Part shown: positions 1-29,456 of the stretch, one piece after another | Layout of the letters: each line of letters begins with the position of its first letter | Position numbering within the stretch: position 1 is the stretch's first letter | Notes under the pieces: model-generated | What the model was told of the DNA's origin: nothing | Databases searched by the model: none | The model's input: only the letters and a program-made list of their open reading frames with translations | Source of the DNA: Desulfocapsa sp. | Lineage (GTDB): Bacteria > Desulfobacterota > Desulfobulbia > Desulfobulbales > Desulfocapsaceae | NCBI GenBank assembly: GCA_029935315.1 | Contig: JAOZKN010000007.1 | Location: 1-42,524 of the forward strand | Direction of reading: 5' to 3' | DNA length: 42,524 nt | Translations under genes and position numbers: made by a program

Positions 1-398
1 TCAGCACCCCAGAGAAGAGCAATAACGTCACATTTCATCTCAGCAGCAACAGGAATCATCTGCTCCATACGCTCAGGTTGAGCAGAAATGGAATTCATCA
101 GTGCCTGTTCTTTGTTCTTTACAGCCTTGAAACCGGCAGCCATGGCATCCATGTTGGTGGTATCAAGACAAAGAGGAATGTCCACAACTGCTTCAACGGT
201 CTCAACAACAAATGGAAGCAAATCAGTACCATCTTTTCGTGCGGGTCCGATATTGAGATCAAGGTAGGATGCGCCTGCACCTGCCTCTTCCTTGGCCATT
301 TCCTGGATAGGACCGGCCACACGATCTTTCATGGCACCGCCGCTGCGGGTACCCATGATATTGATACTTTCTGCAATTGCTTTAACTGTCTGGGACAT
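1..398 (-). CDS. Methyltetrahydrofolate:corrinoid methyltransferase family protein (5' part only)
   Basis: The gene starts at an ATG whose first base is 398, with an AAGGAGAA ribosome binding site a few bases upstream, and runs off the left edge of the window, leaving about 132 residues. The product begins MSQTVKAIAESINIMG and has the pterin-binding TIM-barrel signature of the AcsE/MtrH/dihydropteroate-synthase-like family, including YLDLNIGPARKDG and a later LCLDTTN strand. Proteins of this family move a methyl group between methyltetrahydrofolate and a cobalt corrinoid protein, as in the Wood-Ljungdahl pathway or in methylated-compound demethylation. The gene upstream encodes a corrinoid-activating protein, which supports a corrinoid partner. 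It has its own sigma-70-like promoter in the 103-base gap. Whether this is AcsE itself or a substrate-specific relative cannot be decided from the visible part. Confidence 0.82.
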   Translation of the reverse strand, partial: MSQTVKAIAESINIMGTRSGGAMKDRVAGPIQEMAKEEAGAGASYLDLNIGPARKDGTDLLPFVVETVEAVVDIPLCLDTTNMDAMAAGFKAVKNKEQALMNSISAQPERMEQMIPVAAEMKCDVIALLWGA

Positions 399-501: not shown

Positions 502-2421
502 TCAGCTTTTCTTGGCCGACGGAAAGAGGCTCATATCGGTGTGCGGCAGAAAGAGAGCAGCCATATAGTGATTCATAAAATCCGGATTTTCCGAGAGTTC
601 CATATTGGTCATCAGTGTACGTACTGCCACCCGCTCACGAAAGCGACGATGATTGGTGAGACTGATCTGACAACCAAGCATAGAGGCGTTGCCGAGATAA
701 AAGAATTTATCCCGGTCTATGTCAGGCAGTAAGCCAATGGTGATGGCTCGTTCAAGGTCAATATAGGCTCCGAAGTTTCCGGCTAAAATAACCCGATCAA
801 GATCATCAAAGGTGAGGCCAACGGATGCAAGTAAGGTCTGATATCCTGCATACATGGCACCCTTTGCTCGAATCAGATTATCAAGATCCACTTCGGTGAT
901 CACGATATCTTCACCGATCATGGAATCCCGATCCCAGGCAAGTACATACTCCCAGCGATCGTCCCCTTCACGGATCCGTGGATGATCGAGGTTTCGGTTA
1001 AATTTTCCCTGAGGATCGATAACGCCAGCGTCAAGAAGTTCTGAGACGATGGAAATCAGACCGGAACCGCAAATTCCACGGGGTTTGGTATGGCCAATGG
1101 TAACCACCATGGGATCATAGGTCTCCGGGTGGATCTGGAAATTTTCGATGGCTCCCTGACTGGCACGCATTCCGTAGCGAATTCCACCACCTTCAAAGGC
1201 AGGCCCTGCTGAACAGGCAGCACAGACAAGCCAGTCCTGGTTACCGATAACGATTTCACCGTTGGTACCAATGTCGATAAAGAGGGAAATTTCTTCACTC
1301 TTGTGCATCTGGCAGGCATGCACACCGGCCACAATATCCCCACCCACCTAGGAAGAGATACAAGGGTAGAGAAACATACGCACGGAGGGATGGGCCATAA
1401 TGCCAAGATCTGCAGCCCTGGTCAGCGGGAACTGGCTGACAGCAGGAACATAGGGGGCTTCCCGTAAAAATTTGGGATTAATGGCCAGCATAAGATGGGC
1501 CATTACCGTGTTGCCCGCCGTCATGATATAGCTGATATCACTTGGACTGATGATAACTTTCTTACACACCTCATCAATAATATTGTTGATTGTGTAAACA
1601 ACTTTTTCCTGCAGCGCTTTAAGTCCGCCTGGCCGCTGGGAATAGATCATCCTGGAGATTACATCCTCGCCATAGCCAATCTGTGAATTGTAGCCCGAAC
1701 CTTCTGCAATAATTTCTCCGCTGTTGAGATCAATCAAAACACCGCCACAGGTAGTTGTGCCGATATCAACGGCTAGTCCGTATAGCTTATCGGTGGTATC
1801 CCCGGCTTCCACGGCAATGATACGATCCGGCTCTGCTTTGCGTTTCCCGTGGAGGAAGATAACAGTAATTTCCCAGTTGGCATCCCGAAGGTCAGCTGAG
1901 AGTTCACGAATCAGTTCCGGATGATCGTATCCCGGTTCCGGGTCATCAGGTCTGGTGTTTTTGATGGCACGCATCAGACGCTGCATATCGGAAATATTAT
2001 CTTCCAGAGTGGGAGGTGGAATCTTGAGAAAAAGTTTACTTACCGGAGGATCAACATCCCAGGTGCCCACAAGGGATTCAAGGGATTTTGCAGAAATGGA
2101 ACGTGTGGTTTTTGGCGTACGTTTCAGGGCCTTGCCATCGGCTTTGACAATATCCGGAATGCGTACGGTAATATCGGAGACAACCGTTGCCTTACAGGCC
2201 AGGCGTACACCTTTTTCGTATTCGCTCTGTTTGAGGGTGGCTGCACTGTCAGATTTTACGTCACCCTCTTCCAGCACAACTTTACATTTTCCGCAAACAC
2301 CGTCTCCGCCACAGAAGGCGTGGATATAGACACCAGCGGTAGCTGCTGCTGTAAGAAGATTTTCTCCGTCCTCAACTGCAACATGGACGTTGTCGGGCAA
2401 AAAATGTATGTTATGTTTCAT
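502..2421 (-). CDS. Corrinoid-protein reductive activator (RACo/RamA-like, DUF4445), interrupted by an in-frame TAG
   Basis: This family uses ATP and an N-terminal 2Fe-2S ferredoxin domain to reduce inactive Co(II) corrinoid proteins back to Co(I). The N-terminal part shows the plant-type 2Fe-2S pattern (CGGDGVCGKC, then LACKA), followed by a linker and an ASKHA-type ATPase region (AVDIGTTTCGGVLID; later FIDIGTNGEIVIG and LAGNFGAY). The whole frame from ATG 2421 to TGA 502 encodes about 639 residues, the usual RACo length, but codon 358 (1348-1350) is TAG. The frame is otherwise open, with family-like sequence directly on both sides (YPCISS, then VGGDIVAGV). Possible explanations are a nonsense mutation of a Tyr codon, a sequencing error, pyrrolysine insertion or suppression, or two separately translated halves with GTG 1347 as a restart. 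The methyltransferase downstream fits a corrinoid methyl-transfer role. Confidence 0.85.
1348..1350 (-). other. In-frame amber codon (TAG) inside the corrinoid-activator gene
   Basis: The minus strand reads ATC TCT TCC TAG GTG GGT GGG GAT at this point, and the reading frame is open for 357 codons before and 281 codons after. TAG is also used as an ordinary stop by several genes of the window (for example those ending at 6924, 8664, 11935, 15171 and 16560), so the genome as a whole does not avoid amber. The following GTG at 1347-1345 could restart translation, but there is no convincing ribosome binding site before it. Confidence 0.9.
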
Positions 2422-5403: not shown

Positions 5404-5529
5404 GATGGCTAAGTAAAAAGCTTCATATTCGAGGAACGCAAATTTGTTGGAGTGAGGCGTACTTAAGTACGTCGCAGCGACATCAAATTTGCAGAGACGA
5501 AGAAGATGAAGAGTTTTTATGACGCCATC
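5404..5529. repeat. 126-bp palindromic dispersed repeat, copy 2
   Basis: This copy begins GATGGC and ends GCCATC and shares the central CGTACTTAAGTACG palindrome with copy 1 at 2562-2687. Its outer arms differ from copy 1 by A-to-G at position 4 and T-to-C at position 123, which preserves base pairing. It starts one base after the stop codon of the 37-residue gene and lies upstream of the rnhA leader hairpin. It may serve as a 3' stem-loop of that small gene. Confidence 0.85.
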
Positions 5530-5530
5530 A

Positions 5531-8813: not shown

Positions 8814-11800
8814 TCAGATCGTAACAAATTGCAACTCGGCTTGTAGGTCTTTCACCCTTGTCTCCCACAGAGGGCATTGCTTGCGAATGCATTCTTTGTT
8901 TTTCAGATATTGATCGCATTCCAGTATCTCGTTTGCAGTCAATGATACTGACAGTGTCTCTTCTGAAAGTTTTGCAGTTTCAGTCAGTGCCAGCCAGGTT
9001 TCCCGCTGACAGCAGCGGCCACCTCGGTATTTTGAAATGCTGGACAGAATCTTTGCACTGAAGGCCTGTGCTGCCTGGCGCGGTGATGGTGTGAGAGGGG
9101 TTGCGGCAAGGATTGTGGAAACTGCAATTCCCGTACCAATAGCGGCTCCGCAAGCACCCCAGAAACCACAGACACCTCCTGGAATCTGGGCTCCCCTGTC
9201 TATGCCGGCGATGATGGTTTCTTCTGTTATTTTTCCACCGGAATTACGATACGCAGCCAGAATAATACCGGGAATCATGGCATGGTGTTCAGGGCCATGC
9301 ATGGGAATTGCCGGATGGCTGCGAATAAGTTTTAAGAGTGTTATAAGATCCGTTTCCCGGATCCAGCTGGTGATGGCTTTGATTACTTCAAGCCCGTTTT
9401 CACGGTGACAGTCATCGCAGACGAAATGGTCCGCTTCGCAACAGGCATTTGCCGGGAATTCCCGCCCGCAATAACTGCAGGAGAGTTCCTGGATAGTCGT
9501 GAAATAGCGTAATTTGGCTCCACAGACCATACAGCCTTCCGTTTTCTTCTCCTGTATCTCGCAACAGATGTTTTCCGGTTCACAGCAATTTGTTTCCGTG
9601 CCACTGATTGATGTCTGTGGGGAACAGCAGGAGTTTTCCATTGCAATATTCGTGACCGCTCCTGCCTTATCCAGGAGAAAGACACTCTCATCAAGCAGAG
9701 AAGCTTCCTGGGCCGTAATCGTGCAGACCCTTCCCTTTACCAGCAGTGTACCGGATTCGGTGTAAATAGCGCCATGGGGGCCCCGATAGATGGCCTGTAC
9801 CTGTTCGCCCAGCATGATCACAGGTTTAATTGCCTCGTAGGTGAGGGAGAAAAAGTCCATACCTTCCACCTGGCGGTAGGGAAAGCGTTTTATAAAGCGG
9901 ATGGAGGTAAATTCAGCTGCTTCCATCATGGCCACCAACTCTTCCTGCTGCATGGCACCACCCAGGCATTCGCCACGATAGCGGACATTATTACGGATGG
10001 TGGCGGGGATAGCTGTGTCGGTGATAATGTCTGAGACCACCAGCCTGCCACCCGGTTTCAGGATGCGATAAATCTCCTGGTAGGTCATACGTTTGTCGGG
10101 GCTGAGATTGATAACACAGTTGGAAATAACCACGTCAGCCTGTTCATCTTCCAGGGGGATCTGTTCGAGAAAACCTTTTTTAAATTCAACGTTCTGATAG
10201 CCAAGACGATCGGCAACTTCTGCCTTGGCGTCATTGGCAAGCTGCAGCATTTCATCCGTCATATCAATGCCAACTACGCGGCCACTTCTACCAACAGAAT
10301 CTGAGGCCATAAAACATTCGATGCCGCCGCCAGAGCCTAAGTCAACCAGGGTTTCACCTTTTCGGGGCGCCCCATCTGTCACCGGACTGCCACAGCCATA
10401 GGAGTGCTCTTTGGCAGAATCCGGTACAAAATCTGCCGCATTCTGGGCAGGAGCCAGAGGGTTTAAAATATCCGTGTTGGCAGTGAGTGCTGCCTGGCCG
10501 TAGAACTCCCGGACAGAGCTGTGCCCCGTATCTGAGGCCAGTGATATAAGACAGTTGCAGTGGGTTAAACACAGCCCTCTCCCCTCTGCATCTTCTTCAG
10601 GACAGTCGTGGCGAACATCACCCATACGCAGACGAATCCCGTTTTTGTTCCCGGTTGCATAGAGACTGGCCTGATCCTCGATGAGCTGGATGGCAATACG
10701 GTTGTAGAGTTCAACATAGGGGTCATGGCCAACCCATTTTCCGGCCGACATAAAGCTGTGATCAATATCTCCCCCCCCTATGAAAAATTTGAGGGGATTT
10801 GCACTGTACCCGGATGAATCCAGAAGACTGCTCTGCCGGATACTGTGCAACACGCCACTATTTTGCCAGACCTCGGCCAGACCTGAATCAAGATCGCCGC
10901 AGGCACACTGCTCCATTCCCACAAGGGCCGGGGACGGGTAAACAATGCCATCGGGGCCAATGGCCACTGACTCCCACGCAGTGTTGGAAAGATCATAGCG
11001 GGTACCAGGTGTTGAGAACACCTGACTGCGCATGGTTTCGATATTATCGATTTGCAGATTCAATGCATCTGCCAGCAGCCACGCCTCTCGTAATCTGGGG
11101 AAAATCTGCTCCGGAGTGATAAATTGATCGCTGTTTCCTTTGCCCCGGATAAAGTGATAGAGCAGATGAATGCTTGATGCTCCAAGTTCTGAAGCTAGCT
11201 CCACAAGCTTTGGCAGATCATCGATGTTTTCAGTGCTCAGGGCAACGGAGAGAGTAAAGGGAATGTTCGCCTTGTGCAGAGCTTGCAGGTTTTTGAGGAG
11301 TGTCTGGTAACTCCCCGTTCCCCGCAGCCTGTCATGGCTCTCTTCCAGGCCATCCAGACTTATCTGCAGGTGAAGTCTGTCCATGCTGGCCAGCTCATCC
11401 AGATACTGATCAAGGAGCATCCCATTGCTGAGGACTGCAGCATGACAATCCGGGGTGTCTGCAAGGAGTTGCTGGAGAAAGGGGATAAAGTCGGGATAGA
11501 TAAAGGGCTCACCACCCGTAAATGAAAATAAACGGCAGCCCAGCTGCAGAGCCTGCTCAACAGTTTTCTGCAGAAGTCCGGGGTCCATGCGACGACTTTT
11601 GGCGGGGGACGCAGAGAAGAGGCAGTGGCGACAGCTCAGGTTGCAGGCGTCGGTGAGATGGAACCAGCACTCTTTGAGTTTTCCCAGTTTGAGGACCGAT
11701 TGCCGTCCTTTATACGGTGTCGGGGATTCTATTGTAACCGCACTTTCCAGGAGATTACGCTGATACCTGTCCTTGTCGTTGCATATGTCCGTGTTGAGGA

Positions 11801-11921
11801 TAGCGTCTGCCTTTTTGGAAACAACTATCCAGTCAGGAATTTCGGGTTGAACAAGAAGAACCGAATTGTTCAGGCCAATACGCTGCCATCCTTTTTTCTC
11901 TGCAAAACACTTCTCTGTCAT
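8814..11921 (-). CDS. Radical SAM / ArsM-like As(III) methyltransferase / DUF5714 fusion protein
   Basis: This 1035-residue protein joins at least three enzymes or binding domains. Residues about 85-300 are a radical SAM core (CNLSCRHC at 93-100, FSFTGGEP), followed by a cysteine-bearing SPASM-like region (CAC at 339-341; Cys 440, 451, 455, 457). Residues about 480-715 match SAM-dependent arsenite methyltransferases: YGCG, DLGSGGGIECF, SNCVINLSPDK and GECLGGA place cysteines at 510, 536, 602 and 652, equivalent to the four key cysteines of ArsM. A linker with three CC pairs (765-787) and zinc-ribbon-like CxxC motifs (797-838) leads to a DUF5714 domain (HGPEHHAMIPG; GGVCGFWGACGAAIGTGI). ATG 11921, 13 bases after the upstream stop, is preferred over 11993, which would overlap that gene. 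Arsenic or other metalloid methylation is an inference from the conserved cysteines. Confidence 0.85.
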   Translation of the reverse strand: MTEKCFAEKKGWQRIGLNNSVLLVQPEIPDWIVVSKKADAILNTDICNDKDRYQRNLLESAVTIESPTPYKGRQSVLKLGKLKECWFHLTDACNLSCRHCLFSASPAKSRRMDPGLLQKTVEQALQLGCRLFSFTGGEPFIYPDFIPFLQQLLADTPDCHAAVLSNGMLLDQYLDELASMDRLHLQISLDGLEESHDRLRGTGSYQTLLKNLQALHKANIPFTLSVALSTENIDDLPKLVELASELGASSIHLLYHFIRGKGNSDQFITPEQIFPRLREAWLLADALNLQIDNIETMRSQVFSTPGTRYDLSNTAWESVAIGPDGIVYPSPALVGMEQCACGDLDSGLAEVWQNSGVLHSIRQSSLLDSSGYSANPLKFFIGGGDIDHSFMSAGKWVGHDPYVELYNRIAIQLIEDQASLYATGNKNGIRLRMGDVRHDCPEEDAEGRGLCLTHCNCLISLASDTGHSSVREFYGQAALTANTDILNPLAPAQNAADFVPDSAKEHSYGCGSPVTDGAPRKGETLVDLGSGGGIECFMASDSVGRSGRVVGIDMTDEMLQLANDAKAEVADRLGYQNVEFKKGFLEQIPLEDEQADVVISNCVINLSPDKRMTYQEIYRILKPGGRLVVSDIITDTAIPATIRNNVRYRGECLGGAMQQEELVAMMEAAEFTSIRFIKRFPYRQVEGMDFFSLTYEAIKPVIMLGEQVQAIYRGPHGAIYTESGTLLVKGRVCTITAQEASLLDESVFLLDKAGAVTNIAMENSCCSPQTSISGTETNCCEPENICCEIQEKKTEGCMVCGAKLRYFTTIQELSCSYCGREFPANACCEADHFVCDDCHRENGLEVIKAITSWIRETDLITLLKLIRSHPAIPMHGPEHHAMIPGIILAAYRNSGGKITEETIIAGIDRGAQIPGGVCGFWGACGAAIGTGIAVSTILAATPLTPSPRQAAQAFSAKILSSISKYRGGRCCQRETWLALTETAKLSEETLSVSLTANEILECDQYLKNKECIRKQCPLWETRVKDLQAELQFVTI

Positions 11922-11934
11922 AGCCTGTTCTCTA

Positions 11935-12510
11935 CTACTTTTGTTCAATAACGGGGGGTGTCTGTAAACGTTCTTCATAGACGGAAAGAACAAGAAAAGT
12001 GGCCAGGGGCTGGGTGAAAAGAACGGCTACAGCAATGGAACTGCCCAATGAAATAATGACCAGGTAGAGTACCATCAGAATAAGCTGATTACTTATGGGA
12101 GCCTTGGTCGCCATACTCCAGGATTCTTTCAGCGCATCCATAAGGCCCATATTTCTGTCTGACATCAGGGGCATCATATATATTGTGGCAAAAACGAGGA
12201 ATGCGACAACCAGAAAGCCGGGTAAAATCAGCAATGCAAAACCGAGAAATGTGGCAATCATGGCCAGCAGTCCAAAAATAAAGAGGGGGAGAAAAAGCCG
12301 CATCTCTGTGAAAAGGTCGCCTATTTTCGGTTCACGGCCCTCACGAAGTGCCAGGAGCAGGGACTGCATATATCCCGCAGTGGTGACAGGTGCCAGAATT
12401 CCAAAGCTGAATATAATGACAATCATCTGTACCAGGGTCAGTAAAATAACCGGGACAATAAATTGCAGTGTTGCGTTCCATGCGGTTCCAAGATGTTCTT
12501 TAAAATCCAT
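11935..12510 (-). CDS. Polytopic membrane protein, DUF975/YciC-like
   Basis: The 191-residue product has about five hydrophobic segments (around 18-46, 69-108, 136-175), starts MDFKEHLGTAWNAT and resembles small integral membrane proteins of the DUF975 or glycerophosphodiesterase-membrane-domain type, recognised by segments such as MPLMSDRNMGLMDALKESW. AAAGGAA precedes the ATG. It lies 13 bases upstream of the radical SAM fusion gene and is probably co-transcribed, so a transport or membrane role for the fusion product or its substrate is possible but unproven. Confidence 0.65.
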   Translation of the reverse strand: MDFKEHLGTAWNATLQFIVPVILLTLVQMIVIIFSFGILAPVTTAGYMQSLLLALREGREPKIGDLFTEMRLFLPLFIFGLLAMIATFLGFALLILPGFLVVAFLVFATIYMMPLMSDRNMGLMDALKESWSMATKAPISNQLILMVLYLVIISLGSSIAVAVLFTQPLATFLVLSVYEERLQTPPVIEQK

Positions 12511-17255: not shown

Positions 17256-17360
17256 TTCGTAAAAACCCTTCATCTTCTTCGTTATGTGCCCTTTAGGAAG
17301 TGCCCTTGGGGTACAAATTTCAAATTATTCCAACGTACCCCGAAATTTGCTTCTTACGAA
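17256..17360. repeat. 105-bp inverted-repeat element with TTCGTAA ends
   Basis: The element begins TTCGTAA and ends TTACGAA, a perfect 7-bp inverted pair, and contains a second internal pair (GGGGTAC and GTACCCC). Its left part TAAAAACCCTTCATCTTC is almost the same as an arm of the 126-bp repeats at 2562 and 5404, so it seems to be a rearranged or chimeric relative. It lies between rdgB and queH and has no gene. Confidence 0.65.
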
Positions 17361-28304: not shown

Positions 28305-28910
28305 ATGGGATTGATGAAAGGATCTGCGGGTTTTGTTCGCTTCAGTGTTGAAGGGGATCTGCCCGAGAATATATGGGATTACATCGCTGAACGTATTACT
28401 GCCTTTGCCTTTAAAGATATTGATGATACCTACGAGGAGGATTCCCTGGGATGGGTCTCTGTCAGCAATATGTTTGACACAGAGTTTAATTATGCTTCCT
28501 ATGCTGCCGGGAATTACGTAACACTTTCCATGCGGCTGGATGAAAGAAAGGTTTCTGCCACCATCGTGAAGAAATTTGTGGCCAAGGAAGAGGAACGGAT
28601 CAAAAAAGAAAAAGAAATTCCCAAAATTTCCAGATCCATGCGGGTGGAAATCAAAGAACGTATACAAAATGAACTTATGCGTAAGGCACTACCAATGCCT
28701 TCTGTCTTTGATTTGTGCTGGAATCTTGAGGATTCGACTCTGCTCTTCTTTTCAACAAATAAGAAGGCACAGGCCCTTCTTGAGGATCTTTTTAAAGAGA
28801 CCTTTGGATTGACTATCATGCAGCAGATTCCATACCTGTGTGGAGAGCATTTGCTGGATGAAGAGGGGGCCGACAGGCTTGCGAGAATCACCCCGGATAT
28901 ATTTGTTTAG
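28305..28910 (+). CDS. RdgC-like recombination-associated protein
   Basis: The 201-residue product starts MGLMKGSAGFVRFSVEGDLPENIWDYIAE and has the SLGWVSVSNMFDTEF segment and TLLFFSTNKKAQALLEDLFKETFGL near its end, features I associate with the RdgC family of DNA-binding recombination modulators. It is shorter than the roughly 300-residue E. coli RdgC. The next gene, 12 bases downstream, seems to carry a related second part, so this may be one half of a two-gene RdgC-like system. Similarity by eye only; I give it moderate confidence. Confidence 0.6.
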   Translation: MGLMKGSAGFVRFSVEGDLPENIWDYIAERITAFAFKDIDDTYEEDSLGWVSVSNMFDTEFNYASYAAGNYVTLSMRLDERKVSATIVKKFVAKEEERIKKEKEIPKISRSMRVEIKERIQNELMRKALPMPSVFDLCWNLEDSTLLFFSTNKKAQALLEDLFKETFGLTIMQQIPYLCGEHLLDEEGADRLARITPDIFV

Positions 28911-28922
28911 GGAGTAGAACCA

Positions 28923-29456
28923 ATGGATTTAGTAGATCTTATAGAAGAAAAACGATTCCTGGGACAGGAGTTTCTGACCTGGCTCTGGTGGAAGAGTGAA
29001 GAGCGCGGCGGTGTTGTGGCCTTACCTGGTGAGGGTGATATTGTAGTCGTTTTTGAAAAACATATGCTGCTGGAATACGGAGCTGGCGACTCAAATGAAA
29101 AGCTGATTTGCTCGGGCCTGCAGACGGAGTTGAAAGAGGCCCGTACCGGTCTTACCATGGGCAAAAAACTCGAGCAGGCACGAATCCAGATTGTCTATAA
29201 CGATTATGAATGGAATTTTACCATGGCAGCGGCCCTTATGGAGTTTCGCAGCGTGAAGCTGCCGAAAACCGGTGGCACTGAAAATCTTAATGATCCGGAA
29301 GAGCGTGAGGGGATGATACTGGAACGGATCTTTTTGTTTGAAGAGCTGGTTCGTATCGTACTTGAATTGTTTCGGGTATATCTCAAGCAGCGTGTTGCTG
29401 ACGAATGGCGTGAAGAATTGGCGAAGATTCGGGCATGGGTCGCTTTGGCCGAGTAG
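28923..29456 (+). CDS. Partner protein of the RdgC-like gene
   Basis: The 177-residue product starts MDLVDLIEEKRFLGQEFLTWLWWKSEERGG, a motif (FLGxEFLTWLW) that I recall in larger RdgC-like proteins of proteobacteria, and ends with a helical segment rich in Arg and Glu (RIVLELFRVYLKQRVADEW). It is not a known enzyme. It starts 12 bases after the RdgC-like stop and is followed 38 bases later by gatB, so the three may be one operon. If the motif is right, it works with its neighbour on DNA ends or recombination; this is inference. Confidence 0.6.
   Translation: MDLVDLIEEKRFLGQEFLTWLWWKSEERGGVVALPGEGDIVVVFEKHMLLEYGAGDSNEKLICSGLQTELKEARTGLTMGKKLEQARIQIVYNDYEWNFTMAAALMEFRSVKLPKTGGTENLNDPEEREGMILERIFLFEELVRIVLELFRVYLKQRVADEWREELAKIRAWVALAE

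Follow-up and report, generated by a model that had tools for sequence, protein, structure and literature searches.

The window analysed here, i.e. the whole stretch of DNA of 42,524 nucleotides, comes from a Desulfocapsa draft genome of 3.1 Mb in 257 contigs that is 98.95% complete (GCA_029935315.1, contig JAOZKN010000007.1). On its minus strand a frame runs from 2421 to 502 that is open for 639 codons save for a TAG at 1350–1348, and then reaches its terminal stop. A frame of this length with this single interruption had been described in an earlier, sequence-only reading, which left the strand unstated, and was confirmed. The following features were assigned at this end of the window:

502..2421, minus strand: acsV/RACo gene of 639 codons plus stop with a single interruption (Pfam domains, NCBIfam AcsV, phmmer to 3ZYY)
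1348..1350, minus strand: in-frame TAG, codon 358, aligned to Tyr352 of 3ZYY; Tyr in 28/29 orthologues
1351..2421, minus strand: 5' part with the [2Fe-2S] domain (Cys37/43/46/76), linker, N-lobe and phosphate-1 motif DIGTT (219) (Pfam and motif positions)
505..1347, minus strand: 3' part with the C-lobe, phosphate-2 motif DIGTNGE (383) and Ser404, without decay (Pfam and motif positions)
3..398, minus strand: acsE-like methyltetrahydrofolate:corrinoid methyltransferase, truncated by the contig end (Pfam Pterin_bind; NCBIfam PRK07535 / CODH_ACS_meth)

Mechanical ORF calling yields two ORFs in one shared frame, 1348–2421 (357 aa, starting at ATG) and 502–1347 (281 aa, starting at GTG), which for annotation are to be treated as a single RACo gene. 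When the protein was read through the TAG, the four RACo domains were found in the expected order: the 2Fe-2S domain (Fer2, 9–80), the linker (RACo_linker, 121–211), the middle domain (Raco_middle, 214–375), which spans the TAG, and the C-terminal ASKHA domain (RACo_C_ter, 377–636). The domains run unbroken across the TAG with a best Pfam E-value of 5e-109, and phmmer aligned 634 residues of the read-through protein with the solved RACo 3ZYY (E = 4e-153). By these scores the end-to-end RACo homology across the TAG is not a product of chance. The RACo/RamA-like family proposed before and the homology on both sides of the stop are thus borne out. The cluster cysteines Cys37/43/46/76 and the equivalent of the cobalt-ligating serine (Ser404 = Ser398) are present, and the one departure from an intact RACo reading frame is the TAG at codon 358.

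Compared with RACo of Carboxydothermus hydrogenoformans (PDB 3ZYY; CoFeSP complex 4C1N), the gene shares the four-domain layout over the aligned length, the [2Fe-2S] cysteines and the serine, whereas Tyr352 of that protein is replaced by the TAG in this one assembly. The best family for the read-through protein was AcsV of acetogens (NCBIfam NF040756), with which it has the full-length match and the acsE-like neighbour in common, although its score of 671.8 bits lies under the 800-bit cut-off of the model. 'AcsV' is accordingly used as a functional label and does not, on this score, denote strict NCBIfam membership; the RACo Pfam domains do pass. RamA is the activator of methylamine corrinoid proteins in methanogens that use pyrrolysine. 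The NCBIfam RamA model (TIGR04270) gave 119.6 bits, reflecting the ATPase core common to both, but this is far under its cut-off of 500 bits and the genome is without MttB, and the gene resembles a CODH/ACS-type activator. The partner corrinoid iron-sulfur protein, represented by the subunit CdhD (G000:C44), and the methyltransferase (the acsE-like gene at 3-398) are both encoded in the genome. Because AcsV is the best family, an acsE-like gene is the neighbour and CdhD is present, the product of 502..2421 is most likely the ATP-dependent reductive activator of the Wood-Ljungdahl corrinoid iron-sulfur protein and not an activator of a methylamine system. The nearest named orthologues are mainly from drafts of Desulfocapsa and allied Desulfobulbaceae/Desulfocapsaceae. 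In one relative (L062) the acsV–acsE order is kept, with prmA on the other side of acsV.

The stop separates residues that belong to the same reaction. The four cysteines of the [2Fe-2S] cluster and the phosphate-1 loop are encoded 5' of it, and the phosphate-2 loop and Ser404 are encoded 3' of it. The RACo residue aligned with Ser404 is Ser398, a ligand of cobalt in the complex formed by CoFeSP and RACo (PMC4934906). If the TAG is real, translation would terminate after residue 357, and the [2Fe-2S] electron donor would be produced while the C-lobe, which supplies the remainder of the ATP site and the serine that touches cobalt, would be missing. Activation of the corrinoid protein would then fail or drop to the level that readthrough allows. 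The truncated product, with only one half of the ATP site and no contact to cobalt, is expected to be inactive. Such a loss would be costly, because the gene for the partner corrinoid protein is present.

Codon 358 was compared in 29 orthologues of 70–92% identity. Of these, 28 encode Tyr here (TAT or TAC) and one encodes Phe (TTT), and none has TAG; both RACo paralogues of the source genome also have Tyr at this site. An internal TAG was absent from RACo in all 36 other genomes (full or near-full orthologues, 67–92% identity), one of which has an unrelated TGA at a Gly position. A single base separates TAG from either Tyr codon, in agreement with the earlier suggestion that a Tyr codon was its origin. 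As none of the compared orthologues has it, the TAG at codon 358 amounts, by this comparison, to a nonsense difference of one base that is confined to one assembly.

That both halves look intact and under selection, as had been claimed, was upheld. dN/dS was below 0.08 on both sides of the TAG in every comparison yielding a value, which is a rough estimate with synonymous changes near saturation. Of the columns that are invariant in all other members of a 23-sequence alignment, 219 precede the TAG and 196 follow it; the window RACo has 2 unique changes in the former and none in the latter. These counts are no worse than those of intact orthologues, and no decay of the 3' part was seen when it was looked for on the same alignment. 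The conservation figures sum over the long period since the species diverged. The lack of unique changes after the TAG therefore indicates no more than that the stop arose too recently to be reflected in the sequence, is unreal, or is suppressed.

Pyrrolysine had been put forward for the codon, and RACo does work in corrinoid chemistry. Pyrrolysine is found in some marine Deltaproteobacteria together with methylamine methyltransferases; these dual-code organisms possess pyl genes and have the TAG within the methyltransferase (PMC8318568). The present case resembles that system in that a gene of corrinoid chemistry contains an in-frame TAG, but here the TAG is not in a methyltransferase and pyl genes are not found. 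PylSn had no match in the source genome (~99% complete). All matches of PylSc in this genome were weak and below the cut-off, and 13 of 14 control genomes likewise gave hits at the threshold used; at the strict threshold PylSc was found in 0/20 genomes of the genus. PylD reached 18.7 bits in the source genome against a cut-off of 150, and MttB was not found there. Among the 23 tRNAs found, a set that is incomplete by about one third (38 in the complete relative G008), none has a CTA anticodon, an absence that by itself carries little weight. TAG moreover is a common stop here, as had been noted before: it terminates 12 of the 35 genes in the window, and of 296 long ORFs sampled from 558 kb of the genome it ends 70. 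The RNA downstream of the TAG has no special fold, as a recoding hairpin 3' of it did not fold better than shuffled sequences (z = 0.82). Nor is the TAG kept at the site in homologues; tyrosine in the orthologues, which the sequence-only reading itself had named, along with the lack of a suppressor tRNA, as evidence against pyrrolysine, is what was observed. With PylSn, PylSc, PylD and MttB all below cut-off, pyrrolysine at codon 358 was rejected and is considered exceedingly improbable. Were the TAG decoded after all, it would be a case of amber recoding tied to an activator instead of a methyltransferase, in a bacterial group without pyl genes.

Because relatives have Tyr at the site, none has TAG and no pyrrolysine system was detected, the stop in RACo is attributed to an error or a recent mutation. 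The best explanation is that the TAG either terminates translation or does not truly exist: the gene would be an ordinary RACo/acsV whose conserved Tyr codon 358 was changed to TAG by a single base, either through an error in the consensus or assembly or through a very recent nonsense mutation (probability about 0.93). This supports what had been called the simpler explanation. Between its two forms, a wrong consensus base appears somewhat more likely than a very recent nonsense mutation in the sampled population. Genuine in-frame stops are well known from conserved genes of bacteria, and many genes with such stops keep a low dN/dS (PMC7918605). The decay-free 3' part also fits efficient readthrough. 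In a readthrough scenario, a real TAG would be partially read by ordinary near-cognate tRNAs, or by an unbinned amber suppressor other than that for pyrrolysine, and low amounts of full-length RACo would result. The incompleteness of the tRNA set leaves room for this. However, the CTA anticodon is lacking among the tRNAs found, decay would be equally absent after a recent mutation or an error, and the stop is kept in no relative; we regard readthrough as unlikely. Even less probable is a genuine and fixed TAG at which a non-pyrrolysine suppressor tRNA, for instance an unbinned amber tRNA that inserts Tyr, would fill codon 358 and provide full-length RACo at a level set by suppression.

The remaining proposal was that the gene is split, with a second protein restarting either at the GTG that directly follows the TAG or at GTG 364 and the halves reassembling into an active activator. 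The position of the stop near the boundary of the lobes, between the end of Raco_middle and the start of RACo_C_ter, would suit such an arrangement, as would a G-rich stretch (AGGTGGGTGGGG) 5' of GTG 364. This stretch, however, follows from the need to encode the conserved VGGD peptide, and most of it also occurs in orthologues that are intact. A restart shortly 3' of the TAG would yield a C-lobe fragment, and no relative is built in this way: not one orthologue is split at the site of the TAG. The split is therefore scarcely credible. Returning to the erroneous or recently mutated Tyr codon as the preferred reading, it follows that the assembly should be counted neither as a pyrrolysine user nor as RACo-less without checking at the level of the reads.

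Other interrupted genes were sought in 558 kb, or 18% of the genome, by scanning for dicodon coding potential. The scan returned 39 raw stops with a coding signal on both sides, nearly all of which appear to lie between neighbouring operon genes in the same frame, the second gene starting shortly 3' of the stop (judged by eye, with a homology test on the RdgC pair only). A second convincing TAG-interrupted gene was not found in these 558 kb. A formate dehydrogenase with a selenocysteine TGA, recognised by its sequence context, was among the candidates and served as positive control for the scan. Its in-frame TGA lies in DHCARL*HASTVVGL (L119 ~16425, minus strand; G000:C78). Since it carries this selenocysteine-site TGA, the source genome probably uses selenocysteine. 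Within the window, a further interrupted gene would have pointed to suppression or to a poor assembly. The other strong TAG there, at 28908–28910 in an RdgC-like region, was rejected as a second interrupted gene, as relatives also have a stop (TAG, TAA or TGA) between the ORFs; judged from this conservation, it is a true gene boundary. The two ORFs form a tandem pair at 28305-29456; one has a match to RdgC that is limited to the N-terminal half, and the other has no Pfam or NCBIfam match. Throughout the order the two remain neighbours with a stop in between, and the pair looks like a split RdgC-like protein.

The control gene GatB had an in-frame stop in 0/53 genomes, and the idea that these genomes are generally prone to such stops was rejected on this ground. 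In the relative G010 (L011, G010:C159) RACo has a TGA at codon 535, a Gly position. GatB of G010 is likewise fragmented, as two pieces that overlap, which suggests that this draft is error-prone and that breaks cluster in poor drafts.

Elsewhere in the window, an imperfect palindromic repeat of ~105 nt is dispersed at 2576-2680 and 5418-5530, with a partial copy at 17257-17282. Blast found 14 hits for it in the 558 kb sampled from this genome, and more copies occur in relatives. It folds far better than shuffled sequences (z = -3.68) and resembles a REP/MITE-like intergenic element. At 8814-11993 the window encodes a protein of 1059 aa in which a radical SAM domain is fused to a class I methyltransferase and DUF5714.
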